Assembly (NCBI RefSeq): GCF_023823125.1
Contig: NZ_CP090949.1
Span: 310,001 to 374,000, forward strand
DNA from: Erythrobacter aurantius
GTDB lineage: Bacteria > Pseudomonadota > Alphaproteobacteria > Sphingomonadales > Sphingomonadaceae
Direction of reading: 5' to 3'
DNA length: 64,000 nucleotides
Position numbers and translations under genes: made by a program
Notes under the pieces: generated by a model
Seen by the model: only the letters and a program-made list of their open reading frames with translations
What the model was told of the DNA's origin: nothing
Databases searched by the model: none
In this document: positions 2,304-18,096 of the stretch, piece by piece
Layout: every line of letters begins with the position of its first letter
How positions within the stretch are numbered: the first letter of the stretch is position 1

Positions 2304-4454
2304 ATGGCTGTCGAGACTCACAAGACGTTTTGCCGTTTCTGCCACGCCAATTGCGCGATGGAAGTCGATGTCGAGGTGACCAAAGCCGGGCGCAAAGTCA
2401 TCGAGGTACGCGGCGATCCCGATGATCCCGCTTTCGGTGGATACACCTGCCTGAAAGGGCGCGAGCTGCCGGATTCGCACAATGCGGAACATCGCCTGCA
2501 TCACAGCCTGGTGCGCAATGCCAATGGCGAGTTTCAGGAAACCGCCATGCCAGATGCGCTCGCCCATGTGGCAGAGACGATCCGCCGCGTGATCGACGAA
2601 CACGGGCCGCACGCGGTTGCCGTGTTCATGGGATCGGGCGGGTATCAGAACAGCGCCGCCATGGCCGCCTCGCTCAGCTTCGCGCAGGCAATCGGCACGC
2701 GCAATTTCTACACCTCGGTGACGCTCGATCAGCCCGCCAAGGTGTTCACCACCGCACGTTATGGCAAATGGATGGGCGGCCCGAACACCTTTTCGGAAAG
2801 CGATGTCGCGCTTCTCGTCGGCAACAACCCCATTGTCTCGCACTATTCCCCGCCGGGCGGCGTTCCGCCGTTCAGCCCGTCGCGCCGCATCCGCGATCGC
2901 AAGGCCGAAGGGATGAAGGTGATCGTCGCCGACCCACGTGAAAGCGATGTGGCGCGGCTGGCGGACATATACCTGCCGGTAAAGCCGGGCGAAGACCCCG
3001 CGCTGCTCGCCGGGATGCTCAACGTGATCATTTCCGAAGAGCTGTATGATCGCAATTTCGTCTCCGCCCATGTCGACGGGTTTGAAGAACTCGCCGAAGC
3101 GGTGAAGCCGATGACGCCCGAAGTGGCGGCAGAGCGCGCCGGGGTGGACAAGGATCAGCTGGTCGCCGCCGCGCGGATGTTTGCTGGCGGATCGAAAGGC
3201 TGCGCCGTCACCGGCACCGGTCCCGAAATGGCGGGCAACGGCACGCTGACCGAATATCTCGTCACCTGCCTCAACACCGTCTGCGCCCGGTTCAAGCAGG
3301 AGGGCGAAAAGGCCGCGATCCCCGGTGTCTTCACCAACATCAACGGCCCCCGCCGTGCGCAGGTCGGCCCGCCGATGCCGATGTTCGGCGCGGAAGGCAT
3401 GGCGAAATCGCGCTTTCGCGGGCTCGGCCAGCTTGGTTTTGAAATGCCGTGCAATGTGCTGGCGGACGAAATCCTCACCCCCGGCGAAGGCCAGATCCGG
3501 GTGCTGATATCGGTCGGTGGCAATCCGGTGGTGGGCTTCCCCAACCAGCAGAAGATGGTGCGCGCGCTCGACGATCTCGACCTGTTCGTGCAGATCGACC
3601 CGTGGATGAGCGCCAGCGCAAAGCGCGCCGGTGTCGTGCTCGCCCCGTCGCAATGCCTTGAGCGTGAAGACATCACCAACCTGTCAGAATGGTGGCACGA
3701 AACCGCCTATGCCCGCTACGTCGAAGCGCTCGCGACGCCTCCGGGTGACGTGATCGACGAATACGAGATGTTCTGGACTTTGGCCCATCATCTGGGCGTG
3801 CAGATGAACCTTGCGGGCGGGCCGTTGCCGATGGATCGCAAGCCGTCGAAGGAGGAATTCCTCGATCTGATGACAGCCGGTTGCATTGCCCCGCCCAGCC
3901 AGGTGCGCAAGGATGCGCAGGCGGCAGGCGGCGCGGCGGTGGTCTATGAAGACAAGCACCCCGTCGTCGGCCCGGTGGAGGAAAGCGAATTCAACCGCTT
4001 CAACCTTGCCGCAGGCGACATGCCCGCCGAATTGCTGCGCTATGCCGACAATCCGGCGGCGCGGGCGGGTTACGAATTCAAGCTGATCAGCCGCCGTTCG
4101 AAAACGCGCTTCAACTCGATCGGGCACCCGCTCAAGAAGCTGCGTGAAAAGACGACGACCAACCCGGCCTATATCCACCCGGACGACATTGCCGCGCTGG
4201 GGCTGGAAGAAGGCGGGATTGTCGAAATCACCAGCCCGCACGCCACGATTCATGGCGTGGTCAAGGCGAGCAACAAGGTGCGCCGTGGCCTCGTGTCGAT
4301 GGCGCATGCCTATGGCGATGCCGACGCGTCGAAAGAGGATGTGCGCGAGCGCGGCTCTTCGACCAACCGTCTGACCAGCGACGAGGTGGATTACGATCCG
4401 ATCACCGGACAGGCGCTGCAAAGCGCGATCCCGGTGAAGCTTGTCGCTGCCTGA
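2304..4454 (+). CDS. Molybdopterin oxidoreductase of the DMSO-reductase superfamily
   Basis: The 716-residue protein starts with an iron-sulfur motif, CRFCHANC, and a fourth cysteine in 'YTCLKG' (Cys-Leu-Lys-Gly), giving the Cx2C-x3-C-xn-C arrangement of a [4Fe-4S] site ahead of a bis-MGD domain. The middle contains 'GGNPVVGFPNQQK', and the C-terminal beta-barrel dinucleotide-binding domain begins near residue 600 ('FKLISRRSKTRFNS'). There is no twin-arginine signal, so a cytoplasmic enzyme is expected. The ATG at 2304 follows an AAGGAG site at 2291-2296. No partner iron-sulfur or membrane subunit is adjacent. The substrate is unknown; formate, a thiol oxide or an organic hydroxylation are all possible. 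Confidence 0.85.
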   Translation: MAVETHKTFCRFCHANCAMEVDVEVTKAGRKVIEVRGDPDDPAFGGYTCLKGRELPDSHNAEHRLHHSLVRNANGEFQETAMPDALAHVAETIRRVIDEHGPHAVAVFMGSGGYQNSAAMAASLSFAQAIGTRNFYTSVTLDQPAKVFTTARYGKWMGGPNTFSESDVALLVGNNPIVSHYSPPGGVPPFSPSRRIRDRKAEGMKVIVADPRESDVARLADIYLPVKPGEDPALLAGMLNVIISEELYDRNFVSAHVDGFEELAEAVKPMTPEVAAERAGVDKDQLVAAARMFAGGSKGCAVTGTGPEMAGNGTLTEYLVTCLNTVCARFKQEGEKAAIPGVFTNINGPRRAQVGPPMPMFGAEGMAKSRFRGLGQLGFEMPCNVLADEILTPGEGQIRVLISVGGNPVVGFPNQQKMVRALDDLDLFVQIDPWMSASAKRAGVVLAPSQCLEREDITNLSEWWHETAYARYVEALATPPGDVIDEYEMFWTLAHHLGVQMNLAGGPLPMDRKPSKEEFLDLMTAGCIAPPSQVRKDAQAAGGAAVVYEDKHPVVGPVEESEFNRFNLAAGDMPAELLRYADNPAARAGYEFKLISRRSKTRFNSIGHPLKKLREKTTTNPAYIHPDDIAALGLEEGGIVEITSPHATIHGVVKASNKVRRGLVSMAHAYGDADASKEDVRERGSSTNRLTSDEVDYDPITGQALQSAIPVKLVAA

Positions 4455-4479
4455 CCCGTAACGAACAAAAGGAATTCCC

Positions 4480-5490
4480 ATGCCCGAAAACCGGCGCTTC
4501 CTCCTCCAGCGTCGCCCCGATGGCGAACCTGTCGCGCAAGACTTCGAGCTTGTTACCGAGCCGACGCCCGAACTGGCGGAGGGGCAATTCCTGATCCGCA
4601 ACCATTATGCCTCGCTCGATCCGGCGATGCGCGGATGGATGGACGCGGGTGGGAATTACATGCCGCCGATCCCCCTGGGCGATCCGGTGCGCGCCAGCAC
4701 CATCGGCGTGGTCGAGGAAAGCCGCGCCGACGGGTTCGAAAAGGGTCAATGGGTGATGGGCCTCAACGCGCTGGAGGATTATTCTATCGGAGTCGCGGGC
4801 GGCTTCACCCAGCCGATCGACCCGTCACTGGTGCCGAGCGTCACCAATTACCTCTCGATCTTCGGCGCGGTCGGGATGACGGCGTATTTCGGTTTTCTGG
4901 AGGTGTGCGAACCCAAGCCGGGTGAAACCGTGCTGGTATCGGGCGCGGCGGGCGCGGTCGGCAGCCTTGTCGGACAATTGGCGAAAATCCACGGTTGCCG
5001 CGCTGTCGGCATTGCCGGCGGCCCGGCGAAGTGCGCTCGGCTGACGGAGAAATACGGCTTTGACGCAGCGATCGACTATCGCGGCAAGGATGAGGCCGCG
5101 CTGACCGCCGCGATAGCCGAAGCCTGCCCGGACGGGGTCGATGTGATCTTCGAAAACGTCGGCGGGATCATCCTTGATGCCGGGCTGATGAACCTCAACC
5201 TGCATTCGCGGGTCGGGCTGTGCGGCCTGATCAGCGAATACAACACCGAGCCGCGCGGCATCCGCAACCTGTGGCAGCTGATCGTAAAGCGCGCGCATAT
5301 CCGCGGCCTGCTGGTGGCGGATTATGTCGAACGTTTCGGCGAAGGCGCGGTGAAGATGGGCGAATGGGCCGCTGCCGGCAAACTCACCATCGACGAACAT
5401 GTCGATGAAGGGCTGGAACATGCTTTCGACAGCTTCATGCGGCTGTTTGCCGGGACCAATGACGGCAAGATGATCCTCAAGATCGCCTGA
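4480..5490 (+). CDS. MDR-family NADPH oxidoreductase, paralogue of the 1187-2188 gene
   Basis: The 336-residue protein aligns along its length with the minus-strand MDR gene to the left: 'YASLDPAMRGWM' here matches 'YLGFDPAQKGWM' there, and 'VLVSGAAGAVGSLVGQLAKI' is the cofactor motif in both. Family members reduce activated double bonds with NADPH. It starts 25 bases after the molybdopterin oxidoreductase and its stop overlaps the next ATG (TGATG), so it belongs to the same transcription unit as the ThuA-like gene. This suggests action on a shared substrate. The exact substrate cannot be read from the sequence. Confidence 0.85.
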   Translation: MPENRRFLLQRRPDGEPVAQDFELVTEPTPELAEGQFLIRNHYASLDPAMRGWMDAGGNYMPPIPLGDPVRASTIGVVEESRADGFEKGQWVMGLNALEDYSIGVAGGFTQPIDPSLVPSVTNYLSIFGAVGMTAYFGFLEVCEPKPGETVLVSGAAGAVGSLVGQLAKIHGCRAVGIAGGPAKCARLTEKYGFDAAIDYRGKDEAALTAAIAEACPDGVDVIFENVGGIILDAGLMNLNLHSRVGLCGLISEYNTEPRGIRNLWQLIVKRAHIRGLLVADYVERFGEGAVKMGEWAAAGKLTIDEHVDEGLEHAFDSFMRLFAGTNDGKMILKIA

Positions 5491-6254
5491 TGGGATCGCT
5501 GCTCGTCCTGTCCGGTGGCCATCCCTACGAGGAAGGACCGTTCGACGAGCTGATCCATGCACTCGGCAATTGGGACGTCACCCATCTGGTGCACCCCGAA
5601 GCGGAGCAGAAGGTCGCCGAGGGGGCGCTGAACCTTGCCGACGCGCTGCTGTTCTACGACATGGGCGGGTACACTTTCGCCGATGGGGCGGTGGCGGTGC
5701 AAGAGCCCTCGCAAGCCTTCCGCAAGGCGATCACGCAGCGGTTCCTGTCAGGAAAAGGCGCGGTGGCGATGCATCATGCGCTGGCCGGGTGGGCCGATTG
5801 GCCGGAATGGCACGAATGGCTGGGCGGGCAGTTCCACTACCAGCCCGGAAAGCACGGCCCGGATTCCGGCTATCGTCACGATGTGGCCTACGAAGCGCGT
5901 ATCGTGGCCAGCCATCCGGTGACGCAGGGCCTGCCCGAAGGCTTCCCGGTTACCGACGAGTTGTATCTCTGCCCGATCGATGAAAGCGCGATCACGCCAT
6001 TGGCACGCGCCGAGGGGTTCGGTTTCACACGCGACAATTTCTACTCGGCGGCAAATGCGGTCGCGGGCGAGATGTTCAGCCGGGACGGCTGGGATCACCC
6101 TCAGGGCAGCAATTGCGTCGCCTGGGAAAGCCGGACCTGCCCCGCCCCGCTCGTCTATCTGCAATTCGGCGACGGGCCCGATACCTATGCCAACCCGCAT
6201 TTGCGCCGGATGCTCGCACAAGCGCTCGAATACACTTCAGGAGGAAACGCATGA
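5490..6254 (+). CDS. ThuA-like (class I glutamine amidotransferase fold) protein, copy 1
   Basis: The 254-residue protein opens with a 'LLVLSGGHPYEEGPFDEL' strand-loop-helix and has 'GKGAVAMHHALAGWADWPEW' in the middle, both typical of the ThuA-like trehalose-utilisation fold, an amidotransferase-like fold that often lacks the catalytic cysteine. Here the nucleophile elbow carries His-His-Ala, not Cys. Its ATG overlaps the upstream stop and its own stop overlaps the next ATG, so translation of three genes is coupled. A second ThuA-like gene lies at 11498-12250. In this context a sugar role is unlikely; an isomerase, hydratase or lyase step in the island pathway is a guess. Confidence 0.75.
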   Translation: MGSLLVLSGGHPYEEGPFDELIHALGNWDVTHLVHPEAEQKVAEGALNLADALLFYDMGGYTFADGAVAVQEPSQAFRKAITQRFLSGKGAVAMHHALAGWADWPEWHEWLGGQFHYQPGKHGPDSGYRHDVAYEARIVASHPVTQGLPEGFPVTDELYLCPIDESAITPLARAEGFGFTRDNFYSAANAVAGEMFSRDGWDHPQGSNCVAWESRTCPAPLVYLQFGDGPDTYANPHLRRMLAQALEYTSGGNA

Positions 6255-6631: not shown

Positions 6632-6754
6632 GCGTCGCGGCAGCCTTTTGACGCCATGCAGATGACGCAACCCTAACACATTCGCGCATCGCGCTGGCGG
6701 GCGGGGAGTGGCTAGAAATCAGGCTCGAAATTCCTCGCGATGGGAGCCGCCCGC

Positions 6755-8008
6755 ATGAACAAGCCCGAAGCCATCAAGGACGCGCACATCTTCGCGCCGG
6801 AAACGCTGCTTGATCCGTTCGACTACTACCGCGCGATCCACGATGCCGGGATCGCGATCGAGCATCTGCCGGAAATGAACACCTATGTTGTCTACAGCTA
6901 CGACCTGTGCAGCGAGGCCAACACCAAGCCCGAGGTGTTCTCGAACGATTTTACCGCTCTGATGGGGCGCGAGGAGGATGAGGAGATCAACGCCATCCTC
7001 GCCGAAGGCTGGCCGGACGAACCCACCCTTTTGACCGCCGATCACCCCGTCCACACCCGCAACCGCAAGCTGGTCAACCTCGCCTTTTCCGCGCCGCGCG
7101 TGAACGCGATCGAAGGGACGATGCGCGAAAAGAGCGTCAGCCTGATCGAAGCCTTCGCCGACAAGGGTGAGTGCGAGTTCGTCGAGGAATTCGCGATCCC
7201 ATTGCCGGTGTTCATGATCGCCGGGCAGATCGGGCTCGACAAGGATCCCAAGCAGGTGAAGATGTGGTCGGATGCGGCGGTCGACCGGTTCAGCCAGATG
7301 GTCGATCACGAACGCAAGAAGGAATGCGCCCGCAGCCTGGTCGAATACCAGCATTACATGAAAGGCCTGATCGACGATCGCCGCGCCAATGGCGGGGACG
7401 ATCTGCTGACCGATCTGGTTGAAGCGCGGGTCGAAGGCGAAAAGCCGCTGACCGATCCGGAGATCATGTCGATCATGCAGCAATTCATGGTGGCGGGTAA
7501 CGAAACCACCACTTCGACGCTGGCGGGCGGGCTGTTGCAGCTTATCCGCAATCCCGAACAGATGGAAAAGGCCAAGGCCGCAGCCGGCGGACGCGATCCA
7601 AAGCTGATCGGCAACCTCGTCGAAGAGGCGCTGCGTTACGAAACGCCGACAGCGGGGATGTGGCGCATCGTCAAGCAGGACACGCGGCTGGGCGATACCG
7701 ACATTCCGGCAGGGGCCATCGTGCAACTGCGCTATGCCGCGGCCAACCGCGATCCGAAGAAGTTCGAAAACCCCGACAAGTTCGACATCGAACGCACCAA
7801 TGCCCGCGCGCATCTGGCGTTCGGCAAGGGGCCGCACATGTGCGTGGGCAACATGCTCAGCCGCAAGGAAATGCTGGTCGCCTTCGACGAGCTGCTGGAA
7901 CGGCTCGACAATTTCGCTGTCGCCGATCCGGACGGGATCAAGGTCCTGCCCAACATCCTGCTGCGCGGCGTGACCCGCCTGCCAATCACCTTCACCAGGA
8001 AGGGCTGA
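6755..8008 (+). CDS. Cytochrome P450
   Basis: A 417-residue soluble bacterial P450. Oxygen-activating I-helix motif AGNETT is at residues 247-252, the K-helix E-x-x-R is at 291-294, and the heme-ligand loop FGKGPHMCVG holds Cys363. I chose ATG 6755, preceded by GGGAG eight bases upstream, over ATG 6740. It heads the plus-strand run of two acyl-CoA dehydrogenases, DUF35 protein and thiolase, a position like that of CYP125 in actinobacterial side-chain operons. No ferredoxin or ferredoxin reductase is adjacent. Likely role is hydroxylation or stepwise oxidation of a hydrophobic terpenoid or steroid, which is inference. Confidence 0.95.
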   Translation: MNKPEAIKDAHIFAPETLLDPFDYYRAIHDAGIAIEHLPEMNTYVVYSYDLCSEANTKPEVFSNDFTALMGREEDEEINAILAEGWPDEPTLLTADHPVHTRNRKLVNLAFSAPRVNAIEGTMREKSVSLIEAFADKGECEFVEEFAIPLPVFMIAGQIGLDKDPKQVKMWSDAAVDRFSQMVDHERKKECARSLVEYQHYMKGLIDDRRANGGDDLLTDLVEARVEGEKPLTDPEIMSIMQQFMVAGNETTTSTLAGGLLQLIRNPEQMEKAKAAAGGRDPKLIGNLVEEALRYETPTAGMWRIVKQDTRLGDTDIPAGAIVQLRYAAANRDPKKFENPDKFDIERTNARAHLAFGKGPHMCVGNMLSRKEMLVAFDELLERLDNFAVADPDGIKVLPNILLRGVTRLPITFTRKG

Positions 8009-8013
8009 ATCCC

Positions 8014-9102
8014 GTGAATTTCGATCTGTCCGAAGAACAGGAAATGTTCCGCAGCTCGGTCGAGCGGTTCGCCGCGCCGATCGATGTCGAGGCGCGCCGC
8101 CGCTTGCGGCTGTCGCCCACTGGCTATGATCGCGGGCGCTGGAGCCAGCTTGCAGAGATGGGCCTGATCGCGCTCTCCGCGCCCGAGGATGCGGGCGGCA
8201 TGGGCGGTTCCGCCATCGATCTTGCGCTGGTGGCAGAAGCCATCGGCAAGGCCAATTCGCCCGATCCCTGGCTGGAGCACGGCGTGGTTCCCGCTTTGCT
8301 GCTGGCGGCAGGCGGGGGTGAGGCGTTGCTGGAGCCGGTGTTGAGCGGAGAGACAATCGCGACCCTCGCCTGGGCCGAACGGGCGCAACGCTACAATCTC
8401 GAACCGGCCGCCACCGTCGCCGAATACACCGGGGACCGTTTTACGCTGTCGGGTGAAAAGACGTTCGTGATGGGCGCGCTGCTGTCCGACCTGTTCCTCG
8501 TCACCGCAAAGGCCGGATCGCAAACCGCCTGTTTCGTGGTGCCGCGCGATGCCGAAGGTGTCGAAGTGCGCGCCTATCGTCTGGCGGACGGCAGCATTGC
8601 CGGCGAACTGCGGCTGACGCGCGTGCAACTGGACAAGGCGGCGCGGCTCGATCTCGATCTTCCCGCGATTGAAGCGGTTATTTCCGATGTCCGGACCTAT
8701 GCCGCCGCAGAGATGGTTGGTCTGGGCCAACGGCTGCTCGACGATACGCTCGCCTATGTGAAGGAGCGGGAGCAATTCGGGGCGGCAATCGGGACGTTTC
8801 AGGCGCTCCAGCACCGGCTGGTCGAATGCTACGTCCGGATCGAGCAGTGCCGTTCGATGCTGTATCGCGCCGCGCTGACCGATCGCGGCGATGCGCAAGA
8901 ATGGCAGCGTGCCTCTGCCGGGGCGAAGGCTTTCATTGGCGAGAATGTCGACGCGATCGCGCGCGAAGCGGTGCAGATGCACGGCGGCATGGGGATCACC
9001 GACGAACTGGCAATCGGCCACGCGATGAAGCGGGTGATGGTGCTCGCCCGGCTGTTTGGCGACACCGATGCCGCGCTGTCCGAATACGCGCAGGCAGCCT
9101 GA
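8014..9102 (+). CDS. Acyl-CoA dehydrogenase, short form (probable heteromer subunit)
   Basis: The 362-residue protein begins 'FDLSEEQEMFRSSVERF' and has the four-helix C-terminal domain with 'REQFGAAIGTFQALQH', a flavin/interface motif, and 'EAVQMHGGMGIT'. It is shorter than housekeeping acyl-CoA dehydrogenases (about 380-400), mainly in the N-terminal and beta domains. The start is GTG 8014, five bases after the P450 stop, with AGGAAGG upstream. In ChsE1-ChsE2-type enzymes, two unlike subunits form an alpha2beta2 flavoenzyme that desaturates steroid-CoA side chains; the second subunit would be the gene at 12263. This pairing is inferred from length and context. Confidence 0.85.
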   Translation: MNFDLSEEQEMFRSSVERFAAPIDVEARRRLRLSPTGYDRGRWSQLAEMGLIALSAPEDAGGMGGSAIDLALVAEAIGKANSPDPWLEHGVVPALLLAAGGGEALLEPVLSGETIATLAWAERAQRYNLEPAATVAEYTGDRFTLSGEKTFVMGALLSDLFLVTAKAGSQTACFVVPRDAEGVEVRAYRLADGSIAGELRLTRVQLDKAARLDLDLPAIEAVISDVRTYAAAEMVGLGQRLLDDTLAYVKEREQFGAAIGTFQALQHRLVECYVRIEQCRSMLYRAALTDRGDAQEWQRASAGAKAFIGENVDAIAREAVQMHGGMGITDELAIGHAMKRVMVLARLFGDTDAALSEYAQAA

Positions 9103-9126
9103 CAAGAACTAGGGACAGGAGCCGAA

Positions 9127-9552
9127 ATGGGCCAGAAAATCGATCCGAACCTGTGGAGCGACGATCCGCAACCGCACCTGATGGGCGGCAGGCTGCCTTC
9201 GGGCGAAATCGTGTTCCCGATGCCGCAGGGTGACGCGGCGAAGGATGTCGAACCCTACAAGCTGTCACGCCACGGCAGACTGTGGTCGTGGACCTCGCAG
9301 GGGTTCCTTCCCAAGGAGCCTTACGAAGGCCCCGGTTCCGGCCCCGATCAGGGACCGCCCGATTTCGTGCCCTTTCTGCTCGGCTATATCGAGCTGCCGG
9401 GCGAAGTGATCGTCGAAAGCTACATCGTCGATGCGAAGCTGGAAGACCTTCATCTCGACATGCCGATGGAGTTCTGCGTGGTGCCGTTCAACGACACGCA
9501 CGACACCTTCGCCTTCCGCCCCATCGCCTCTTCACAGGAGAAAGCCGCGTGA
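9127..9552 (+). CDS. DUF35 OB-fold acyl-CoA-associated protein lacking zinc-ribbon cysteines
   Basis: The 141-residue protein has the DUF35 layout of an N-terminal ribbon followed by an OB fold, including 'YKLSRHGRLWSWTSQGF' and 'PFLLGYIELPGEVIVESYIVD'. Such proteins form a complex with SCP-x-like thiolases, and in steroid degradation the pair is a retro-aldolase. The usual two Cys-x2-Cys knuckles are missing: the ribbon region reads 'GRLPSGEIVFPMPQGD', and the only cysteine is in 'EFCVV'. Its stop overlaps the thiolase GTG start (GTGA), in keeping with equimolar subunits. Confidence 0.85.
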   Translation: MGQKIDPNLWSDDPQPHLMGGRLPSGEIVFPMPQGDAAKDVEPYKLSRHGRLWSWTSQGFLPKEPYEGPGSGPDQGPPDFVPFLLGYIELPGEVIVESYIVDAKLEDLHLDMPMEFCVVPFNDTHDTFAFRPIASSQEKAA

Positions 9553-10721
9553 GCGAGAATGTCTATATCATCGGCGCAGGCATCCATCCCTTTGGCCGCA
9601 CCGACGAACGATCGGGCCGCGAACAGGGCGTCTATGCCGTGCGCGAGGCGTTGAAGGACGCGGGGCTCGAATGGGCCGACATGGAATGCGCCTATGGCGG
9701 CAGCGCGGCGGCGGGCAATGCCGATATCATGGTCAACGAGCTGGGCCTGACATCGCTGCCCTTCACCAATGTCGCCAATGGCTGCGCCACCGGCGGCAGC
9801 GCGCTGGTTTCGGCGCAAATGGCGATTGCAAGCGGGATGTATGACCTCGCTCTGGCGGTGGGTTTCGACAAGCACCCACGCGGCGCCTTCAACGCCAAGC
9901 CCGCCGATTACGGCCTGCCCGAATGGTACGGCCAGACCGGCATGATGCTGACCACGCAGTTCTTCGCGCTGAAGATCCAGCGTTACATGCAGTTGCACGG
10001 GATCAGCCGCACGACGCTCGGCCGGGTGGCGGAAAAGGCGTTCATCAACGGCGCCGTCACTCCGCATGCATGGCGGCGGAGCGAAATCGATCTCGACACG
10101 ATCATGAACGCGCCGATGATCAATGATCCGCTGACCAAGTTCATGTTCTGCGCTCCGGCGGAGGGCGGTGTTGCCCTGATCCTCGCGAGCGAGAAAAAGG
10201 CGAAGGAGCTGGGCGCGCTCAATAACAATGGCGCGGTGAAGATTTCCAAGATCGCGGTGCGGACCCGTCCGCCTGACAGCTTCGAGGTGTTTCAGGCGGG
10301 TGTCAGCGTGAAGGAAGGCGGCAAGCCGACCGTGCTCGCGTCAAAGGCCGCGTTCGAAGGTGCCGGGATCGGCCCCGAAGACATCGAAGTCGCGCAGTTG
10401 CAGGACACCGAAAGCGGCGCGGAAATCATGCACATGGCCGAAAACGGCTTCTGCAAGGATGGCGATCAGGAAGAATGGCTCGCCAATGGCTGGTCGCGGC
10501 GCGACGGAAAGCTGCCGATCAACACCGATGGCGGATGCCTCGCCTGCGGGGAACCGATCGGCGCATCGGGCCTGCGGCAAGTGTACGAGAATGTCGAGCA
10601 GCTGCGCGGGCGCGCGGGCGAACGGCAGGTGATCAAGGCCCACGGCGGCGCACCAAAGACGGGATACAGCCACGTCTACGGCGCACCGGGGCTTTCGGCA
10701 GTGGCGATTTTGGAGCGTTAA
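9549..10721 (+). CDS. SCP-x/Ltp2-like thiolase-family protein (probable acyl-CoA retro-aldolase)
   Basis: The 390-residue protein is a thiolase-fold lipid-transfer-protein type enzyme. Cys79 in 'NGCATGGSAL' is at the thiolase nucleophile position, and the C terminus has 'GGCLACGEPIGASGLRQV' and 'HGGAPKTGYSHVYGAPG' with two tyrosines. Known DUF35-partnered members cleave beta-hydroxyacyl-CoA side chains by retro-aldol chemistry and use tyrosines for catalysis; I recall this for Ltp2. GTG 9549 overlaps the DUF35 stop. A plain 3-ketoacyl thiolase or hydroxymethylglutaryl-type condensation is less likely given the DUF35 neighbour. Confidence 0.85.
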   Translation: MSENVYIIGAGIHPFGRTDERSGREQGVYAVREALKDAGLEWADMECAYGGSAAAGNADIMVNELGLTSLPFTNVANGCATGGSALVSAQMAIASGMYDLALAVGFDKHPRGAFNAKPADYGLPEWYGQTGMMLTTQFFALKIQRYMQLHGISRTTLGRVAEKAFINGAVTPHAWRRSEIDLDTIMNAPMINDPLTKFMFCAPAEGGVALILASEKKAKELGALNNNGAVKISKIAVRTRPPDSFEVFQAGVSVKEGGKPTVLASKAAFEGAGIGPEDIEVAQLQDTESGAEIMHMAENGFCKDGDQEEWLANGWSRRDGKLPINTDGGCLACGEPIGASGLRQVYENVEQLRGRAGERQVIKAHGGAPKTGYSHVYGAPGLSAVAILER

Positions 10722-11492
10722 ATGGGCAAGATGACAGGCAAGGTGGCGCTCGTCACCGGCGGCGCGGAAGGGATCGGAGCCACGGTCGGCCGGATGATCG
10801 TCGCCGAGGGCGGACAGGTTCTGCTGTGCGACATACAGATCAAGAAAGCGCGCCAGCTGGCGGACGAGCTGGGCGACAATGCCGAAGCGTTCGAGCTCGA
10901 CGTGCGCAATCTCGATCAATGGCACGCAGCGGTGAAATTCGCGCAGGAGCAGTTCGGCAAGCTTACCGTGCTGTGCAACATCGCGGGGATTTCAGAGCCG
11001 GGCAATGTGCCCGAAGGCGCGCTCGACGTTTGGGAACGCACGATCGATATCAATCTCAACGGCCCCTATTACGGAATGCGCGCGGCGATCCCGGCGATGG
11101 AGGCGAGCGGCGAACCCTGTGCCATCGTCAACATCGGGTCGATGATCGCGATGCGCCCTGCCGCTTTCGTTGCGGCCTACAGCGCCTCCAAATCCGGCCT
11201 TCGCGGTCTTACGCAGAGCGTTGCGCTCGATTGCGCCGAACGCGGCGTGCCGATCCGCGCCAACATGGTTCACCCCGGCGCGATCCGCACCCCGATGTAT
11301 GAACGCTACAAATATTCGGGCGCGGACACGCCGGAGAATATCGAGACGAACTTCGCCGCCACCCACCCGATGAACCGCATCGGCGAGCCGGATGAAGTGG
11401 CCAAGGCGGTGGTGTTCCTCGCCAGCGACGAAGCGAGCTTTACCACCGGCTGCGATTTCACCGTCGATGGCGGCGGCAGCATCAGGAGCTGA
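10722..11492 (+). CDS. Short-chain dehydrogenase/reductase
   Basis: A 256-residue classical SDR. The cofactor motif TGGAEGIG is near the N terminus, with NIAG-type strand 'LCNIAGIS', and the catalytic set is Ser140, Tyr153 and Lys157 ('YSASKSG'). Asp after the second strand ('LLCDIQ') predicts NAD rather than NADP. ATG directly follows the thiolase TAA. Close association with acyl-CoA dehydrogenase, DUF35 and thiolase genes suggests oxidation of a hydroxyl on the same substrate, possibly a ring or side-chain alcohol. The substrate is unknown. Confidence 0.88.
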   Translation: MGKMTGKVALVTGGAEGIGATVGRMIVAEGGQVLLCDIQIKKARQLADELGDNAEAFELDVRNLDQWHAAVKFAQEQFGKLTVLCNIAGISEPGNVPEGALDVWERTIDINLNGPYYGMRAAIPAMEASGEPCAIVNIGSMIAMRPAAFVAAYSASKSGLRGLTQSVALDCAERGVPIRANMVHPGAIRTPMYERYKYSGADTPENIETNFAATHPMNRIGEPDEVAKAVVFLASDEASFTTGCDFTVDGGGSIRS

Positions 11493-11497
11493 CGGAT

Positions 11498-12250
11498 ATG
11501 GGCGAACAACCGGCAAAACGCATCGACGCGCATTTCATCGCTGCGGGCAAGTATCACGATATCGACTATCCGCGGCTGGAAGTGCTCAAGCTGCTGGCCG
11601 AACACCCGCATATCCGCACCACTGTCGCCTGCGATTATTCGGGGCTGGAGCGGCTGGACCAGTGCCGTTTCCTCGTAACCTACACTTGCGACCTGATGCC
11701 GACCGAGGAACAGGCGAAGCAGCTTCGCGCGTGGCTGGAAGCGGGCGGCAAGTGGCTGGCGCTGCACGGCACCAATTCGATCCTCGTCTTCACCGAGGAC
11801 GGGCTGGTCGATGCGCCGGAAAACCGCCCTGACGTGTTCGACATGCTCGGCACCCAGTTCAAGGCGCACCCCCCGATCGGCCCGTTCGAAGTCGAAGTGG
11901 TGAACAAGGATCACGAACTGACCCGCGGGATCGACAATTTCGAAGTGGTGGACGAGCTGTACCTGTCCAAGACCACCGCCGAAATCGACACGCTGATGCA
12001 GACCACTTTCGAAGGCGAAGCGACCGGCTTTGTCGACGGGCAATGGGACAAGACGGCGGTGCCGATCCTCTACACCCGCGACATCGGCGCCGGGCGGATC
12101 GTCTACAACACGCTGGGCCATTGCCGCGGCCATTACGACCTGCCGGGAATGCAGGATTTCTACCCGCACAAGGAAATGTGCGCCTGGAATTACGATGTTT
12201 ATTACGATCTTCTGCGCCGCTCGATTGGCTGGGCGATGCGGGAAGACTGA
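11498..12250 (+). CDS. ThuA-like protein, copy 2
   Basis: The 250-residue protein shares the ThuA-like/amidotransferase fold: 'HFIAAGKYHDIDYPRLEVLKLL' at the start, 'YTCDLMPTEEQAKQLRAWLEAGGKW' leading into 'LALHGTNSIL', and 'GAGRIVYNTLGHCRGHYD' near the end, a stretch typical of the family. The elbow residue is His-Gly-Thr rather than Cys, as in copy 1 (His-His-Ala). It lies five bases after the SDR and 12 before the second acyl-CoA dehydrogenase, so it is in the middle of the operon. Its place is where a hydratase would be expected in a side-chain operon; function is not established. Confidence 0.78.
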   Translation: MGEQPAKRIDAHFIAAGKYHDIDYPRLEVLKLLAEHPHIRTTVACDYSGLERLDQCRFLVTYTCDLMPTEEQAKQLRAWLEAGGKWLALHGTNSILVFTEDGLVDAPENRPDVFDMLGTQFKAHPPIGPFEVEVVNKDHELTRGIDNFEVVDELYLSKTTAEIDTLMQTTFEGEATGFVDGQWDKTAVPILYTRDIGAGRIVYNTLGHCRGHYDLPGMQDFYPHKEMCAWNYDVYYDLLRRSIGWAMRED

Positions 12251-12262
12251 AGGACACAGCCA

Positions 12263-13471
12263 ATGGATATGACATTCTCCCCCGAAGACATCGCGTTTCG
12301 CGAAGAAGTGCGCGATTTCCTCGCTGAAAAGCTGCCGCAGCACCTGCGCGATGGTGCCCGGCGCACGCCCGGCGTGTTTGTCGAACCCGACATCGGGATG
12401 GAATGGCACCGCATCCTGAATGAAAGAGGCTGGGTCGCCCCGCACTGGCCCAAGGAAGACGGCGGAACCGGCTGGACCCCGACGCAGAAATTCATCTTCG
12501 AAAAGGAATGCGCGCTGGCCGGAGCGCCCGCCCTCGCCATCCTCGGCCTGCGACTGGTCGGCCCGGTGATCTGCGCTTTCGGCACGCCCGAACAAAAGGC
12601 GCGCTTCCTGCCGCGCATCCTTTCTGGCGACGATTACTGGTGCCAGGGTTATTCCGAGCCGGGTAGCGGATCGGACCTTGCCAGCCTCAAGACTTCGGCC
12701 CGGTTGGAAGGCGACGAATATGTCGTCAACGGTTCGAAAATCTGGACCACCCACGCGCATCACGCCAACTGGATCTTCGCGCTGGTGCGCACCGATCCCA
12801 CGGTGAAGAAGCAGGCGGGCATCACTTTCCTGCTGCTGCCGATGGACCAGCCGGGGATCGAGGTGACGCCGATCCATTCGATGTCGGGCGATCACGAAGT
12901 CAACGCGGTGTTCTTCACCGACGCACGCACTCCGATCGAAAACCGTATCGGCGAGGAAGGCCAGGGCTGGACCATCGCCAAGTTCCTGCTTGAAAACGAG
13001 CGCGGCGGATCGTGCTTTGCCCCGCGCCTGTTGCAGAGCATCGACAAGCTGGCGGAGCTGGCGGAAACGCAGCCTTCGGGCGTCAACGGGGCGATCGCGC
13101 ATGATCCGCGCTTCCGCGACCGGCTGGCGCGCACCCGGCTTGAGGCGGAAGCGCTCGAATTCACCGAACTGCGCATCCTTGCCGAACTGGCGAAGGGCCG
13201 CTCACCCGGGCCGCAAACCTCGCTGGTCAAGATGCTAGGGGCGAACATCGGGCAGGCGGTCGATACGCTGCGGCTCGAACTGCTTGGCCCCGACGCGCTG
13301 CAATTGCCGCTGGAGCGCCCGCTTTACGGCAATGAAGCGCCCGAGCCGGTGGGCAGCGAAATGGCGCAGACTGCCATGGGCCGCTATCTCAACAATCGCG
13401 CCGCGACGATCTTTGGCGGATCGGACGAAGTGCAGAAGAACATCATAGCCAAGACCGTCCTCGGTCTCTGA
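12263..13471 (+). CDS. Acyl-CoA dehydrogenase, full-length (probable heteromer subunit)
   Basis: The 402-residue protein has 'FSPEDIAFREEVRDFL' at the N terminus, the FAD/substrate motif 'YSEPGSGSDLASLKTSA', 'VNGSKIWTTHAHHANW', and C-terminal 'IFGGSDEVQKNIIAKTVLGL'. In medium- and short-chain dehydrogenases the last motif is usually Tyr-Glu-Gly-Thr with the catalytic Glu; here it is Phe-Gly-Gly-Ser, so the base must be elsewhere or in the partner. It lies four genes after the short dehydrogenase at 8014, which may be the partner subunit. The stop is 14 bases before the DECR-like gene. Confidence 0.87.
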   Translation: MDMTFSPEDIAFREEVRDFLAEKLPQHLRDGARRTPGVFVEPDIGMEWHRILNERGWVAPHWPKEDGGTGWTPTQKFIFEKECALAGAPALAILGLRLVGPVICAFGTPEQKARFLPRILSGDDYWCQGYSEPGSGSDLASLKTSARLEGDEYVVNGSKIWTTHAHHANWIFALVRTDPTVKKQAGITFLLLPMDQPGIEVTPIHSMSGDHEVNAVFFTDARTPIENRIGEEGQGWTIAKFLLENERGGSCFAPRLLQSIDKLAELAETQPSGVNGAIAHDPRFRDRLARTRLEAEALEFTELRILAELAKGRSPGPQTSLVKMLGANIGQAVDTLRLELLGPDALQLPLERPLYGNEAPEPVGSEMAQTAMGRYLNNRAATIFGGSDEVQKNIIAKTVLGL

Positions 13472-13484
13472 GAGGGAAGTACCA

Positions 13485-14387
13485 ATGGACGTATCGAAGC
13501 TGATGTTCCGCGATGGCCTAATGGATGGCCAGCGGATCCTTGTCACCGGCGGGGGAACCGGGCTGGGCCGTGAAATGGCGGAAGGTTTCCTGAAGCTGGG
13601 GGCAACCGTCTACATCTGCGGCCGCCGCCAGAACAAGCTGGACGAAACCGCCGCCGAATTGATGGCCGCGCATGGGGGCAAGGTTGTCGCCCATGCCTGC
13701 GACATCCGCGATGCGGACGCGATTCACGCCATGGTCGATGCAATCTGGGCCGATGGCGGCGCGCTTACGGGCGTGGTCAACAACGCGGCGGGCAACTTTA
13801 TCAGCCGGACCGAAGACCTTTCGGTCAACGGCTTCAACGCGATTGCCGATATCGTGATGCGCGGCACGTTCTACGTCACGCTCGACATCGGAAAACGCCT
13901 GATCGCCGAAGGCAAGAAAGCGAGCTTCCTCTCGATCCTCACCACCTGGGTGTGGTCGGGCAGCGCCTTCGTGGTGCCTAGCGCGATGAGCAAGACCGCG
14001 ATCAACGCCATGACGCAAAGCCTTGCGACAGAATGGGGCCGCTATGGCCTGCGCTTCAACGCCATCGCGCCGGGGCTTTTCCCGACCAAGGGCATGAGCG
14101 CGCGTTTGTCCCCTGGGGGACAAGGCGGGAATTCCAAGAACGATCTCAACCCGATGGGCCGCGCAGGCGAAATGCACGAACTGGCGAACCTCGCAGTGTT
14201 CCTGATGGGACCGGGCGCGGAATATGTGAACGGGCAGACCATCGCGATCGACGGCGCAGGCTATCAGGCCAATGGCGGGACATTCTACCCCATGCTCCAC
14301 GCGCTGGGCGATGCCGAATGGGAGCAGATGCGCGCGATGATCAAGGGCACCAACGAGAAGGACAAGGCGGACCGCGCGACCGGATAA
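13485..14387 (+). CDS. 2,4-dienoyl-CoA reductase-type SDR
   Basis: A 300-residue SDR with TGGGTGLG cofactor motif and Arg-Arg after strand two ('ICGRRQNK'), which predicts NADPH. The stretch around residues 160-190 resembles mitochondrial DECR1 closely: 'FVVPSAMSK', 'SLATEWGRYGLRFN' and 'PTKGMSARL'. As in DECR1, the usual catalytic Tyr is replaced by Ser (Ser166), while Lys170 is kept. DECR enzymes reduce 2,4-dienoyl-CoA esters with NADPH. It ends the plus-strand run that starts with the P450. A peroxisomal-type trans-enoyl reductase is an alternative. Confidence 0.85.
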   Translation: MDVSKLMFRDGLMDGQRILVTGGGTGLGREMAEGFLKLGATVYICGRRQNKLDETAAELMAAHGGKVVAHACDIRDADAIHAMVDAIWADGGALTGVVNNAAGNFISRTEDLSVNGFNAIADIVMRGTFYVTLDIGKRLIAEGKKASFLSILTTWVWSGSAFVVPSAMSKTAINAMTQSLATEWGRYGLRFNAIAPGLFPTKGMSARLSPGGQGGNSKNDLNPMGRAGEMHELANLAVFLMGPGAEYVNGQTIAIDGAGYQANGGTFYPMLHALGDAEWEQMRAMIKGTNEKDKADRATG

Positions 14388-14759: not shown

Positions 14760-16382
14760 TTACTCCGCTTCGGCCAGTGCCTGCGCGGTCTTGTAATCAG
14801 GCTTGCCGTTGTTGAGCCTGAGCGACTGATGCGTCATCACGTAAAGGCGTGGAATCTTGTAACCCGCCAACCCGGCGCGGGCACAGGCGTCGAGCGCGTC
14901 CTCGGACACTTCGCCCTCCGGCTGCACCACCGCGACAACTTTCCGGCCAAAGCGCGGATCGGGCAGGCTGACGACGCGCACGTCCTTGACGCCCGGATGC
15001 TCCAGCAGCACCGCCTCGACCTCTTCGGGGAAGACTTTCTCGCCGCCGGTGTTGATGCACATGTTGTCGCGGCCGATGAATTCCATGCTGCCGTCCGCCG
15101 CCCAGCGCGCGCGGTCCCCCGTCATCAGCCAGCGTTTGCCGTCGATTTCGGGGAAGGTCTGGCGGTTCTTTTCGTCCTCGCCCAGATAGCCGAGCGGCAA
15201 GGGCCCGGTGCGCGCGACGATGCCGACGCCTTCGCTGCCCTTGGGAATCTCTTTCAGGTTTTCGTCGAACAGCTTTGTCTCGCGCCCCGGCAAGGGCTGG
15301 AACTTGCCCCCGCCCGTCGATCCTTGCGCGGTGGTGATGACGATCCCGGTGCCGCTGCTTTCCGACGATCCCAGCGCATCGATCACCACCAGCGCGGGAT
15401 TGTGCGCGATCAGCCGTTTCTTGAGATGTTCGGAGAACACCGCGCCTGACGATGTCACGCTGCGCAGGCTGGCAATCGCCTCTGCGGCGTCGGCACGCGC
15501 ATCCAGCCGATCGGCCAGCGGCAGGGCAAAGGCATCGCCGACGATGAAAACACCCCGCGCGCCCAGCCGCTTCACTTCGTCAATCGCGATGTCGGCGTCA
15601 AACTTGTGCGCGGGTAACAGCGCCAGCGTGCCGCCTTTCAGCAGGTGGATCACAGCGGTGAACTGCCCAGCCCCGTGCATCAGCGGGCTGAGCAGCAGCA
15701 GCGGCGAAGTGCTTGCGGGGTGATCCGGCCCGATCCTTGCCGCTTCCTCCAGCTGCGCTTCCAGCGAAGTCGCGACAAAGGGCGGTTCGCCAAAGCCGCG
15801 CTGCCATACCGAAATGCTGAAAGCCTGCCATGCTTCCACCATCGGCCACATCACCGCCTTGGGCATGCCGGTGGTGCCGCCCGTTGCCGTCAGGAACAGC
15901 GCCTGTGGATCGTCATGGATCGCGAAGCCATCAGGCAGCGGGGTTGCTTGCAGCGCGTCCCATTCCGCCCCGCCGACATCCACCGTCAGCGCATCAGGCG
16001 CCATTGCTTCGCGCGCCAGATCGGCAAAATCGCTTTCGGTGAACAGCGCCTTCAGTCCGAACCGGGCGAAGATGTCCGCAAGCTCGCGCTCCTTGTAATG
16101 GTAATTCACATTAACCGGGACGACGCCCGCTTTCACGCAGCCGAAATAGGCGAGCATGTAGTCGGGATTGTTGCGCAGCATCTGCCCGGCAATGTCGCCC
16201 GGCTGCAAACCATGCGCCCTGAGGCCGGCAGCAATCGCATCGGTGCACGAATCGAATTCGCCCCAGGTGACGATCCGCTCCCCATGAATCAGCGCCGGAC
16301 GCGCCGAATCGATACCCTGAGCCAAGGCTTTCAGCGCGATTCCGAAATTCTCGCCCGCCCAGAAGCCATCCTGCCTTAACAT
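14760..16382 (-). CDS. Acyl-CoA synthetase (AMP-forming, FadD-like)
   Basis: The 540-residue ANL-superfamily enzyme activates a carboxylic acid to its CoA ester with ATP. The P-loop 'TATGGTTGMPK' is near residue 190, 'LGSSESSG' is the A5 region, 'MTGDRARW' holds the ribose-binding Asp, and 'GGEKVFPEEVE' and 'NNGKPDYK' (catalytic Lys near the C terminus) close the fold. I chose ATG 16382, which follows a GGAG site, rather than a longer frame. It is divergent from the LuxR-type regulator across 135 bases. It likely activates the island's acid substrate. Sphingomonad steroid clusters often carry such a synthetase, but substrate is inference. Confidence 0.92.
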   Translation of the reverse strand: MLRQDGFWAGENFGIALKALAQGIDSARPALIHGERIVTWGEFDSCTDAIAAGLRAHGLQPGDIAGQMLRNNPDYMLAYFGCVKAGVVPVNVNYHYKERELADIFARFGLKALFTESDFADLAREAMAPDALTVDVGGAEWDALQATPLPDGFAIHDDPQALFLTATGGTTGMPKAVMWPMVEAWQAFSISVWQRGFGEPPFVATSLEAQLEEAARIGPDHPASTSPLLLLSPLMHGAGQFTAVIHLLKGGTLALLPAHKFDADIAIDEVKRLGARGVFIVGDAFALPLADRLDARADAAEAIASLRSVTSSGAVFSEHLKKRLIAHNPALVVIDALGSSESSGTGIVITTAQGSTGGGKFQPLPGRETKLFDENLKEIPKGSEGVGIVARTGPLPLGYLGEDEKNRQTFPEIDGKRWLMTGDRARWAADGSMEFIGRDNMCINTGGEKVFPEEVEAVLLEHPGVKDVRVVSLPDPRFGRKVVAVVQPEGEVSEDALDACARAGLAGYKIPRLYVMTHQSLRLNNGKPDYKTAQALAEAE

Positions 16383-16517: not shown

Positions 16518-17327
16518 ATGGCCACCAATGTCGTTGAACTTCGCACGCCGAACGGCACCGAGAATCTCGAGCAATTGCTGGAACAGGTGACGATCACCTG
16601 CCCCGAAGACATCCACGATGCCGCCGTCAATCTGGCCCGCATCGCGCAGGAGCGGGGGATGCAGGTCGCCGTGTGCGACGACATCTCCTCCAAGGAACCG
16701 ATGATCGACGCCGACGGCACGATCCTGAATGCCGACATCTTCCGCTGGCTGGACGATGGCGCTCGCTGGTGGGAGGATCATCGCCTCGCGCTGCATTCGC
16801 CATTGCCGCGCGCCTGCCGCTATGAAAGCGAACCGTTCTGGGTGAACCGCCACGGCTTCAACCTGAAATGGCGCAATTCCTATCTCGAGGAAATCGACCT
16901 CGCCGATTTTGAAAAGCGTTCGCTGTGCAAGGCGGCGATCGTCATCCCGACGCACCTGCCGTTTGGCCAGATTTCGGCCAGCAGCTTCATCAGCATGGAC
17001 CACGACAAGGAAGACCTGTCGGAAGAATACGCGCTTTACGGCACGCTGTTCGGGCATCTGATCCGCCGCTTCGTCGCCGGTTATGTGCAGGCGAACCGCA
17101 CCAAGCGGCGCATCCCTTCGGATTGCGTGCTGTCAAAGCGCGAGGTCGAATGCCTGCGCTGGGCGGCGATCGGCAAGACCGACAAGGAAATCAGCATGAT
17201 CCTTGATCGCAGCCACGCGACGATCCGCTATCACATCCACCGCGCGGGCGAAAAACTCGACAGCGTCAACCGCGCGCAGACGATTTTCAAGGCAGGCCAG
17301 CTGGGCTATCTGGGGGCGTCGTCCTAG
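16518..17327 (+). CDS. LuxR-family regulator with altered autoinducer-binding domain
   Basis: The 269-residue protein has an N-terminal alpha/beta sensor domain and a C-terminal LuxR helix-turn-helix ('LSKREVECLRWAAIGKTDKE', then 'ILDRSHATIRYHIHRA'). The order fits quorum-sensing LuxR proteins, but the position of the conserved Asp-Pro pair reads Ser-Pro ('LHSPLPRACR'), so acyl-homoserine-lactone binding is doubtful. No luxI homologue is present. ATG 16518 has GAGGAG 11 bases upstream; GTG 16506 is an alternative. It is divergent from the acyl-CoA synthetase and probably controls it, sensing an intermediate or an external signal. Confidence 0.85.
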   Translation: MATNVVELRTPNGTENLEQLLEQVTITCPEDIHDAAVNLARIAQERGMQVAVCDDISSKEPMIDADGTILNADIFRWLDDGARWWEDHRLALHSPLPRACRYESEPFWVNRHGFNLKWRNSYLEEIDLADFEKRSLCKAAIVIPTHLPFGQISASSFISMDHDKEDLSEEYALYGTLFGHLIRRFVAGYVQANRTKRRIPSDCVLSKREVECLRWAAIGKTDKEISMILDRSHATIRYHIHRAGEKLDSVNRAQTIFKAGQLGYLGASS

Positions 17328-17562: not shown

Positions 17563-18096
17563 TCAAAGCTTACGCAACGGTTCGCTGCCGTCCCAGCTTT
17601 CACACGCGGCCTTGATGATGGCGAACAGGTCCGGCCCGTCCTTGGCCTGCTGGAGGATTTCGACCAGCCCGCCCGGACCGCTGCCGGGATTGACATAGAT
17701 CACTTCGCTGGCACCAAAGCGCCCTTCGACCATCACCTCGGCGCCGGCATCGGCACACACCCTGCGCGCCTCGGCGATGTCGTCCACCAGAATGCAGACA
17801 TGGTGCAGCCCGTTGCCGGTCGATCCGTATTCGCCGCGATAGATCGACGGGTGATCGTCGCGCGGGCGGATCAGTTCGATCTGGATATCCCCCCAATAGG
17901 CGAGCGCGAGGTCGAACACCGCATCGGTCGGCTGGCCGCGGTATTTCATTCCCTCAAGATGGATGCCCTCGATCAGGTGGAACGGCCCCACGCCGATCGT
18001 TCCCGTCCAGTGCGCGACGGCGGCGTCGAAGTCCTCGGGCACGAAAGCCAGCTGCATGATCTCGCCCAAAGCCGCAATTTTCCCCGACAGCGCCAT
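17563..18096 (-). CDS. VOC-superfamily (glyoxalase/dioxygenase fold) protein
   Basis: The 177-residue protein has two beta-alpha-beta3 units: 'LGEIMQLAFVPEDFDAAVAHW' then 'HHVCILVDDIAEARRVCADAG'. Candidate metal ligands are the His in 'LHHVCI' and the Glu of 'GGLVEILQ'. Related enzymes include epimerases of methylmalonyl-CoA type, glyoxalases and ring-cleaving dioxygenases. I chose ATG 18096, which follows a GGAGAGG site, over the longer frame. It converges with the LuxR gene and is divergent from the Rieske oxygenase across about 100 bases. Function is not assigned beyond family. Confidence 0.8.
   Translation of the reverse strand: MALSGKIAALGEIMQLAFVPEDFDAAVAHWTGTIGVGPFHLIEGIHLEGMKYRGQPTDAVFDLALAYWGDIQIELIRPRDDHPSIYRGEYGSTGNGLHHVCILVDDIAEARRVCADAGAEVMVEGRFGASEVIYVNPGSGPGGLVEILQQAKDGPDLFAIIKAACESWDGSEPLRKL

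Follow-up and report, generated by a model that had tools for sequence, protein, structure and literature searches.

A sphingomonad gene cassette encoding two acyl-CoA dehydrogenases, a DUF35 protein and a thiolase-fold protein, as a rule without a linked hydratase gene

The gene run and its conserved core

In a 64,000-nucleotide stretch of the Erythrobacter aurantius genome (contig NZ_CP090949.1, bases 310001-374000; the whole stretch is called the window here, and positions are counted from its first letter), eight genes at 6755..14387 encode a cytochrome P450, an acyl-CoA dehydrogenase (ACAD) of smaller size (ACAD-S), a stand-alone DUF35 protein, a thiolase-fold protein, a short-chain dehydrogenase/reductase (SDR), a ThuA-like protein (ThuA-2), a larger ACAD (ACAD-L) and a second SDR (Table 1). 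An earlier reading of these letters, made without database searches (the sequence-only reading), took the eight genes for a side-chain-shortening operon in which the ThuA-like protein replaces a missing hydratase. All eight were found on the plus strand as it had claimed, the junctions from the P450 gene through the last SDR gene (gap 5, gap 24, overlap 4, gap 0, gap 5, gap 12 and gap 13) stay, at 0-24 bases, within the 25 bases that it had allowed, and Pfam backs each of the eight families that it had named. Its label for the last SDR, a 2,4-dienoyl-CoA-reductase type, agrees with the best model but is a weak one, with a score under the curated cut-off. The boundaries that it gave to the operon have to be widened: the eight genes are contiguous, but they form the 3' portion of a plus-strand run that extends over about 2304-14387, in which four more genes precede them. 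The upstream junctions, counted from the gene for a molybdopterin oxidoreductase (Mo enzyme), are gap 25, overlap 1 and overlap 4, followed by 108-123 bases to the P450 gene, and the run as a whole probably makes one transcript. The sequence-only reading had also overlooked a limonene-1,2-epoxide-hydrolase (LEH)-like gene directly before the P450 gene and, at higher coordinates, the genes for an E1/lipoyl (2-oxoacid-dehydrogenase-type) partner.

A protein search of 296 genomes of the order matched 75 of them at E 1e-40. Relatives have at least 61% identity in 49 of these 75 genomes (a few being partial or split) and at most 37% in the remainder. When the family alignment was compared with 398 genomes spread over the phylum, scores above 700 bits were obtained only in the own genome and in one other sphingomonad, and the remaining 12 matching genomes gave 228 bits or less. 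We examined stretches of up to 20 kb around 38 of the 49 relatives and around two distant ones, together with a second set, the named loci, which are the best 80 of 563 confirmed in a species collection and lean toward close relatives. Counts in the named loci are based on tblastn (E 1e-8, 40% query coverage) over flanks of 10 kb or shorter, so that absences are upper bounds, and the SDR names match each other across genes in these counts. The two sets overlap, with 118 loci corresponding to 111 distinct thiolase-like sequences; the search seeds were whole open frames, some of them with additional upstream residues.

Clustering of the genes in 42 sequences (the window and 41 other stretches) places DUF35 and the thiolase-like protein in 37 sequences each, ACAD-S in 35 and ACAD-L in 34, followed by LuxR (31), ThuA-2 (29), P450 (23), Mo enzyme (19), LEH (17) and E1beta (14). 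The 80 named loci contain the thiolase-like protein in all 80, DUF35 in 77, ACAD-L in 67 and ACAD-S in 63, with ThuA-2 and P450 in 51 each, LuxR and Mo enzyme in 49 each, LEH in 33 and E1beta in 23. Because of their high counts across loci, the DUF35 protein, the thiolase-like protein, ACAD-L and ACAD-S constitute the core of the cassette, often with the LuxR regulator, while the other genes are variable; all four core genes are present in 33 of the 41 other stretches. The cassette is common among sphingomonads, the named loci spanning Erythrobacter, Altererythrobacter, Porphyrobacter, Novosphingobium, Blastomonas, Sphingopyxis and Sphingobium as well as two SAR92/Porticoccaceae records, and in the open-access literature, judged by titles and the starts of abstracts, we found no paper that describes it. 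In the two SAR92/Porticoccaceae records (L151 and L152) the thiolase-like protein is 75% identical to that of the window and has the core around it; in L151 the genes for a CoA ligase, ACAD-S, DUF35, the thiolase-like protein and ACAD-L are consecutive. These copies suggest either gene transfer between classes or misbinning.

The thiolase-fold protein and its partners

Sequence and fold place the thiolase-like protein among the SCP2-type thiolases and BbsB, with a thiolase assignment in Pfam and Foldseek TM-scores of about 0.8 against SCP2-thiolase and BbsB. The thiolase fold is thus confirmed; the narrower description as an SCP-x/Ltp2-like thiolase is not supported by its motifs. The protein keeps C79 and carries Q285-D-T-E288 and G-E335-P in 118 of 118 loci (37 of 37 in another count). 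In all of them QDTE occupies the place of YDHF in Ltp2-type steroid aldolases and of HDCF in SCP2-type thiolases, the YDCY of Sal-type aldolases is absent, and GEP replaces GHP, which we take to be a catalytic motif of the SCP2-type enzymes. The motifs HDCF for SCP2 thiolases, YDHF for Ltp2 and YDCY for Sal are those given in excerpts of PMC12329534, where Ltp2-type aldolases are further marked by a second catalytic Tyr. Among relatives of at most 35% identity, 18 of the 19 that were aligned have HDCF or HDAF plus GHP; the exception is a 25% paralogue from the own genome (L187), with YDAF and without GHP, and one aligned relative (L079) is without the N-terminal Cys. The active-site signature is absent from every thiolase and aldolase in this comparison. 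In the DUF35 partner, the OB domain (PF01796) is present and no CxxC occurs in the aligned part across 114 related loci; excerpts of PMC12329534 describe zinc cysteines as conserved in other DUF35 partners.

Five loci (L038, L040, L045, L047 and L048) contain DUF35, the thiolase-like protein, ACAD-L, a second thiolase and ACAD-S in this order, with neither ThuA nor E1beta within the examined stretch. The second thiolase of L047, the sole one of the five that was scanned, scores 657 with PRK06504 (cut-off 590). Because a second thiolase stands there, the QDTE protein is probably dispensable for thiolysis in these loci and is unlikely to serve as their thiolase.

The two different ACAD subunits that are encoded together presumably form a heteromeric ACAD. 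ACAD-L aligns with 4x28_A along its entire length, and its E246, conserved in 100 of 100 loci, falls on residue 247 of that structure, which we take to be catalytic. The closest solved structures are 4x28 and the Tcur3481/3483 pair for ACAD-L and Tcur3481 for ACAD-S (best PDB match 6wy8_A), all of them presumably steroid ACADs. The best NCBIfam models are pimC for ACAD-L (398 bits, cut-off 624) and pimD for ACAD-S (228 bits, cut-off 653), which leaves both proteins under the curated cut-offs for PimC and PimD; the steroid model IpdE2 reaches 123 bits on ACAD-S, far under its cut-off. The sequence-only reading is supported in its view of an acyl-CoA module that joins an ACAD pair of heteromeric type to a DUF35/thiolase-fold pair and is without a hydratase gene of its own.

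E1beta relatives at 76-100% identity occur in 28 of the 296 genomes, all 28 of which have the cassette, and the next match, at 66%, is likewise found in a cassette genome (G242). Within the genus, E1beta is present in 19 of 19 genomes with the cassette and in none of the five without it. In 7 of the 28 genomes E1beta is unlinked, at a distance above 20 kb or, in draft assemblies, on a separate contig; on single-contig genomes the distances are 119 kb and 622 kb (G143 and G203). Because E1beta is kept even when it is unlinked, this distribution argues for a functional tie between E1beta and the cassette. NCBIfam names the E1 subunits as pyruvate-dehydrogenase type, and in Sphingobium-type loci a second E1/E2 set adjoins the core.

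The remaining genes of the run and its surroundings are of more variable occurrence (Table 1). By sequence, the closest solved relatives of the P450 are CYP142/steroid C26-monooxygenases. The PF07858 score and the conserved Arg/Asp residues (R77, D79, R108, D109 and D112, in 49 of 49 related loci), some of them presumably catalytic, assign the LEH-like protein to the limonene-epoxide-hydrolase family. The PDB matches of the Mo enzyme include FdhF and acetylene hydratase. Close to the head of the run, a MobA-like gene accompanies this formate-dehydrogenase/acetylene-hydratase-type enzyme, the latter matched in 49 of the 80 named loci as counted above, and perhaps supplies its cofactor. The catabolic genes are separated from the E1 genes by a DJ-1/PfpI gene and an AraC-type regulator (21668-22708).

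Table 1. Genes of the run and its surroundings in the window, with the evidence for each assignment
Feature	Position	Strand	Evidence or remark
MobA-like nucleotidyltransferase	628..1197	+	PF12804; TIGR02665 100 bits, under cut-off 152
Molybdopterin oxidoreductase (Mo enzyme), formate dehydrogenase/acetylene hydratase superfamily, first of the long run	2304..4454	+	PF00384, PF01568, PF04879
ADH_N_2 reductase, curcumin/prostaglandin-reductase type	4480..5490	+	best model under its cut-off
ThuA-like protein 1 (ThuA-1)	5490..6254	+	PF06283
LEH/SnoaL-like protein, 126 aa	6251..6631	+	PF07858 74 bits, cut-off 24
Cytochrome P450	6755..8008 (possible earlier start 6740)	+	Pfam
ACAD-S, 362 aa, small subunit of presumed heteromeric ACAD	8014..9102	+	Pfam; pimD best NCBIfam
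DUF35/OB-fold subunit, stand-alone	9127..9552	+	PF01796
Thiolase-fold protein (C79, QDTE 285-288, GEP 334-336)	9549..10721	+	Pfam, alignments, fold
SDR	10722..11492	+	Pfam
ThuA-like protein 2 (ThuA-2)	11498..12250	+	PF06283 76.5 bits, cut-off 33.4
ACAD-L, 402 aa, presumed catalytic subunit	12263..13471	+	Pfam; pimC best NCBIfam
SDR, 2,4-dienoyl-CoA-reductase-like	13485..14387	+	PRK07677 227 bits, under cut-off 318
Acyl-CoA synthetase, convergent to the plus-strand run	14760..16382	-	PF00501; PRK07798 459 bits, under cut-off 543
LuxR-type regulator, often adjoining the core	16518..17327	+	PF00196; in 31 of 42 clustered sequences
Glyoxalase_4 protein	17563..18096	-	PF13669
Rieske ring-hydroxylating oxygenase alpha-type protein	18199..19623	+	PF00355, PF00848
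Small lipoyl-like protein	23395..23625	-	gene call; lipoyl label by eye
E1beta, 2-oxoacid-dehydrogenase-type complex	23626..24612	-	PRK09212 343 bits, over cut-off 321
E1alpha, same complex as E1beta	24614..25582	-	TIGR03182 283 bits, under cut-off 394

Hydration, substrate and competing explanations

That the window contains no recognisable hydratase gene, as had been claimed, is borne out, and related loci rarely contradict it. A search with PF01575 and PF00378 finds no MaoC or crotonase gene in the window and none within 220 kb of the core. The whole-genome MaoC search that had been proposed as a check yields 6 MaoC matches (PF01575; 4 over the cut-off), alongside 15 crotonase matches (PF00378), and the nearest hydratase matches lie at bases 58,099 and 87,958 on one side of the window and 629,405 on the other. 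With six MaoC and twelve crotonase open frames of the own genome as seeds, we searched 122 stretches (the window, L037-L077 and L093-L172) and found a single MaoC open reading frame (ORF), located in L151 and 5.0 kb away from the gene for the thiolase-like protein. There were also nine crotonase ORFs, and none of these hits is in the core. The crotonase ORFs of L040, L047 and L048 are weak matches on the strand opposite to the core genes and are probably spurious; the six others (two in L038 and one each in L051, L075, L118 and L151) are at least 3.8 kb from the thiolase-like gene. As a rule, then, no hydratase was found to be tied to the cassette.

Nor do hydratase numbers in nine genomes of the genus, four with and five without the cassette, differ by much. 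MaoC matches number 3, 3, 4 and 4 with the cassette and 3, 3, 2, 2 and 3 without it, and crotonase matches (counts only) 10, 10, 8 and 9 with it and 10, 9, 8, 12 and 11 without it. A trans-acting MaoC co-inherited with the cassette was rejected as a candidate among the own six MaoC genes, none of which tracks the cassette in these nine genomes: L001 and L002 have orthologues in all nine, L005 has one in five (two cassette genomes and three others), and no MaoC in the nine has L003, L004 or L006 as its best match. Among 99 other genus genomes, a 92% relative of L004 occurs in one (G736), the next being at 51%.

The proposal that a new hydratase family, represented by the ThuA-like protein, stands in for MaoC is contradicted by the related loci. 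The gene does lie between those for an SDR and ACAD-L, and it is common (51 of the 80 named loci), but 5 of the 33 loci with a complete four-gene core have neither kind of ThuA in the examined stretch, and the named-locus tblastn did not find ThuA in L151. ThuA-2 is moreover an ordinary member of its family in both its Pfam match, well over the cut-off, and its fold; its AlphaFold2 model has a mean pLDDT of 91.7, and the solved folds that match it best are annotated as putative ThuA-like proteins. Since some complete core loci have no ThuA at all, we reject a ThuA hydratase as a general rule and regard it as extremely improbable.

The substrate had been suggested to be a steroid, hopanoid or terpenoid acid; the acyl-CoA module implied by this is retained, and its steroid part is weakened. 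A search of the whole genome for ring genes, also proposed earlier, locates two 9,10-seco-type ring gene sets and FadD3 at about 3.02-3.14 Mb (L185, L192 and L193). FadD3 scores 692 bits (cut-off 657), two HsaA-like genes score 343 and 292 bits (under the cut-off of 450), and two extradiol dioxygenases score 237 and 249 bits with HsaC (cut-off 450) and 249 and 261 bits with biphenyl-2,3-diol dioxygenase (cut-off 366); because the latter model scores slightly higher, the HsaC identity is uncertain. In the first set the adjoining aldolase and acetaldehyde dehydrogenase pass their cut-offs, and in the second they were judged by eye. Next to FadD3 are genes with matches over the cut-off to PRK07938, PRK07801, PRK07791 and PRK08290, which we take to be a HIP-degradation cluster; the names IpdA, IpdB and IpdC are our assumption, made by eye, and in NCBIfam the 'IpdC' marker matches only FabK, under the cut-off. 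A KstD-like gene that lies 2-4 kb ahead of the window (L077 6449-8107) scores 446 bits with 4-oxocyclohexanecarboxylate 2-dehydrogenase and 416 with KstD, both under the cut-offs, and another CoA ligase and another P450 are encoded near this flavoprotein.

Relatives of two ring markers occur in only 2 of 24 sampled genomes of the genus, the own genome included. Across the order, the markers have relatives in 25 and 23 of the 296 genomes, and the overlap with the 49 cassette genomes consists of the same 8; co-occurrence does not bear out a steroid catabolic regulon. The association is weak (8/49 versus 17 or 15/247, Fisher p 0.045 and 0.035, kinship not corrected), and at the thresholds used, 41 of the order's 49 cassette genomes and 17 of the 19 in the genus have neither marker. 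Because so many cassette genomes are without either marker, the cassette is not tied to this kind of steroid-ring degradation, and it is doubtful that its function is limited to steroids; it may serve side-chain trimming alone or act on another terpenoid.

We tentatively favour a conserved acyl-CoA degradation module, likely for a bulky cyclic terpenoid or other alicyclic acid, with a non-thiolytic DUF35/thiolase-fold step. Either a CoA ligase or the associated E1/lipoyl complex would form the CoA ester, which the ACAD pair (ACAD-S with ACAD-L, E246 being on the latter) would convert to the 2-enoyl-CoA. Since the cassette has no linked hydratase of its own, a general hydratase from another part of the genome would most likely add the water, or else a hydroxyl would come from one of the oxygenases. 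The DUF35/thiolase-fold pair, with its rewritten active site, would then carry out a step that differs from ordinary thiolysis and is most likely a C-C cleavage of the aldolase type, and the P450, LEH, Rieske and Mo enzymes, the SDRs and the ThuA proteins would be add-ons of some versions. Several observations weigh against this explanation. For the putative aldolase-type reaction, neither the Ltp2 nor the Sal motif is present, and in the AlphaFold2 model of the thiolase-like protein (mean pLDDT 76.6) the loop 330-339 falls below pLDDT 50, which makes the active-site geometry unreadable. E1beta at 76% identity or more is missing from 21 of the 49 cassette genomes, some of which have another E1 beside the core, and its co-occurrence counts are not independent, since the genomes share history. 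Finally, a further MaoC type (L214-L217; open frames of 184-196 residues) occurs in all four cassette genomes examined and in none of five others, a hint of a possible dedicated hydratase in certain strains; because the window's genome is without an orthologue of it (nearest identity 29-32%), this type cannot explain hydration in general.

Steroid side-chain removal would assign the same proteins to a sterol or bile acid, with the P450 oxidising the side chain, the ACAD pair desaturating it and the DUF35/thiolase-fold pair removing a C2 or C3 unit. The nearest solved structures of the P450 (CYP142/CYP125-type) and of both ACADs, with their presumed steroid role, are in line with this, as are the FadD3, HsaA-like, extradiol-dioxygenase and KstD-like genes of the own genome and a metagenome-assembled genome named after Chol11 that has the core (L165). 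The marker-free majority of cassette genomes and the weak association over the order make it unlikely, however, and the NCBIfam models put both ACADs nearest to pimeloyl-CoA dehydrogenase, with the low IpdE2 score on ACAD-S. A route that needs no hydratase at all would cleave a double bond: the P450 would form an epoxide, the LEH-like protein a diol and an SDR an acyloin, which the E1/lipoyl complex would split, by the logic of acetoin dehydrogenase, into an acyl-CoA and a ketone or aldehyde, leaving the core to shorten the acyl-CoA. The LEH gene directly 5' of the P450 gene, its retained Arg/Asp residues and the strict co-occurrence of E1beta with the cassette, even where it is unlinked, speak for such a route. 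Yet with LEH in 33 and P450 in 51 of the 80 named loci, it could be the upstream part of some versions only, and the pyruvate-dehydrogenase type of the E1 subunits makes a 2-oxo acid an equally likely substrate, so that we give this route, too, a rather low probability.

The DUF35/QDTE complex might also add water itself, as a hydratase or hydratase-aldolase, through E288 and E335, in the manner of the Glu pair through which crotonases act. The thiolase-fold enzyme, with its putatively zinc-less DUF35, these two residues and the old Cys, would then be a new acyl-CoA hydratase(-aldolase), and the cassette would shorten bulky acids with no need for a MaoC or crotonase. E288 and E335 are invariant (118 of 118), every locus compared contains the QDTE protein (by construction), and the five loci with a second thiolase already have ACAD and thiolase in their five-gene run. 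However, 3-keto oxidation is likewise not encoded in that run, so missing steps alone do not indicate hydration, the retained Cys79 suggests thiol chemistry, and we know of no precedent for hydration in a thiolase fold. Both the hydration by this complex and the new enzyme type that it would represent are improbable.

Comparison with known systems

The favoured acyl-CoA module resembles several described systems in part. The igr operon system for the steroid C3 side chain (ChsE1-ChsE2, ChsH1-ChsH2 and Ltp2) likewise has an ACAD pair, a DUF35 partner and an SCP2-thiolase-fold protein, but the cassette is without a MaoC hydratase, its DUF35 protein is stand-alone and apparently without a zinc ribbon, QDTE/GEP takes the place of YDHF, and an E1/lipoyl partner is present. 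Scd1AB, Shy and Sal of proteobacterial bile acid degraders likewise combine an ACAD pair with a DUF35/aldolase-type pair. Shy, as described in excerpts of PMC11321319, is MaoC plus DUF35 in a single protein, unlike the cassette, and Sal has YDCY (excerpts of PMC12329534) where the cassette protein has QDTE. No MaoC is encoded with the thiolase-like gene in the window, and neither an Ltp2/ChsH nor a Shy/Sal complex is recognised there. The benzoylsuccinyl-CoA thiolase BbsAB, the best PDB sequence match of the thiolase-like protein, likewise joins a thiolase fold with a stand-alone DUF35 subunit, but in the alignment BbsB has HDAF and GHP. PimC and PimD provide the best NCBIfam models for both ACADs, yet both stay under the cut-offs given above. 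E1alpha and E1beta belong to the same sequence families as acetoin/pyruvate dehydrogenase E1, whereas the window has a separate small lipoyl-like protein and no E2 was seen adjoining.

Another related system is the Scd4AB side-chain route of Sphingobium sp. Chol11 and Caenibius tardaugens, likewise a sphingomonad ACAD pair with a monooxygenase, for which gene identity with the cassette is putative. Excerpts of a 2021 review (PMC8399759) list hydratase and aldolase as absent from the Chol11 side-chain route and call bile-acid side-chain shortening by sphingomonads unknown. For C. tardaugens, excerpts of PMC12882949 report a cluster that includes a MaoC-like putative Shy1, as well as Sal candidates and an igr-like operon, and these later side-chain candidates are still tentative there. 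The cassette may bear on side-chain shortening by sphingomonads, to which it brings a clean active-site signature and an unexpected 2-oxoacid-dehydrogenase partner.

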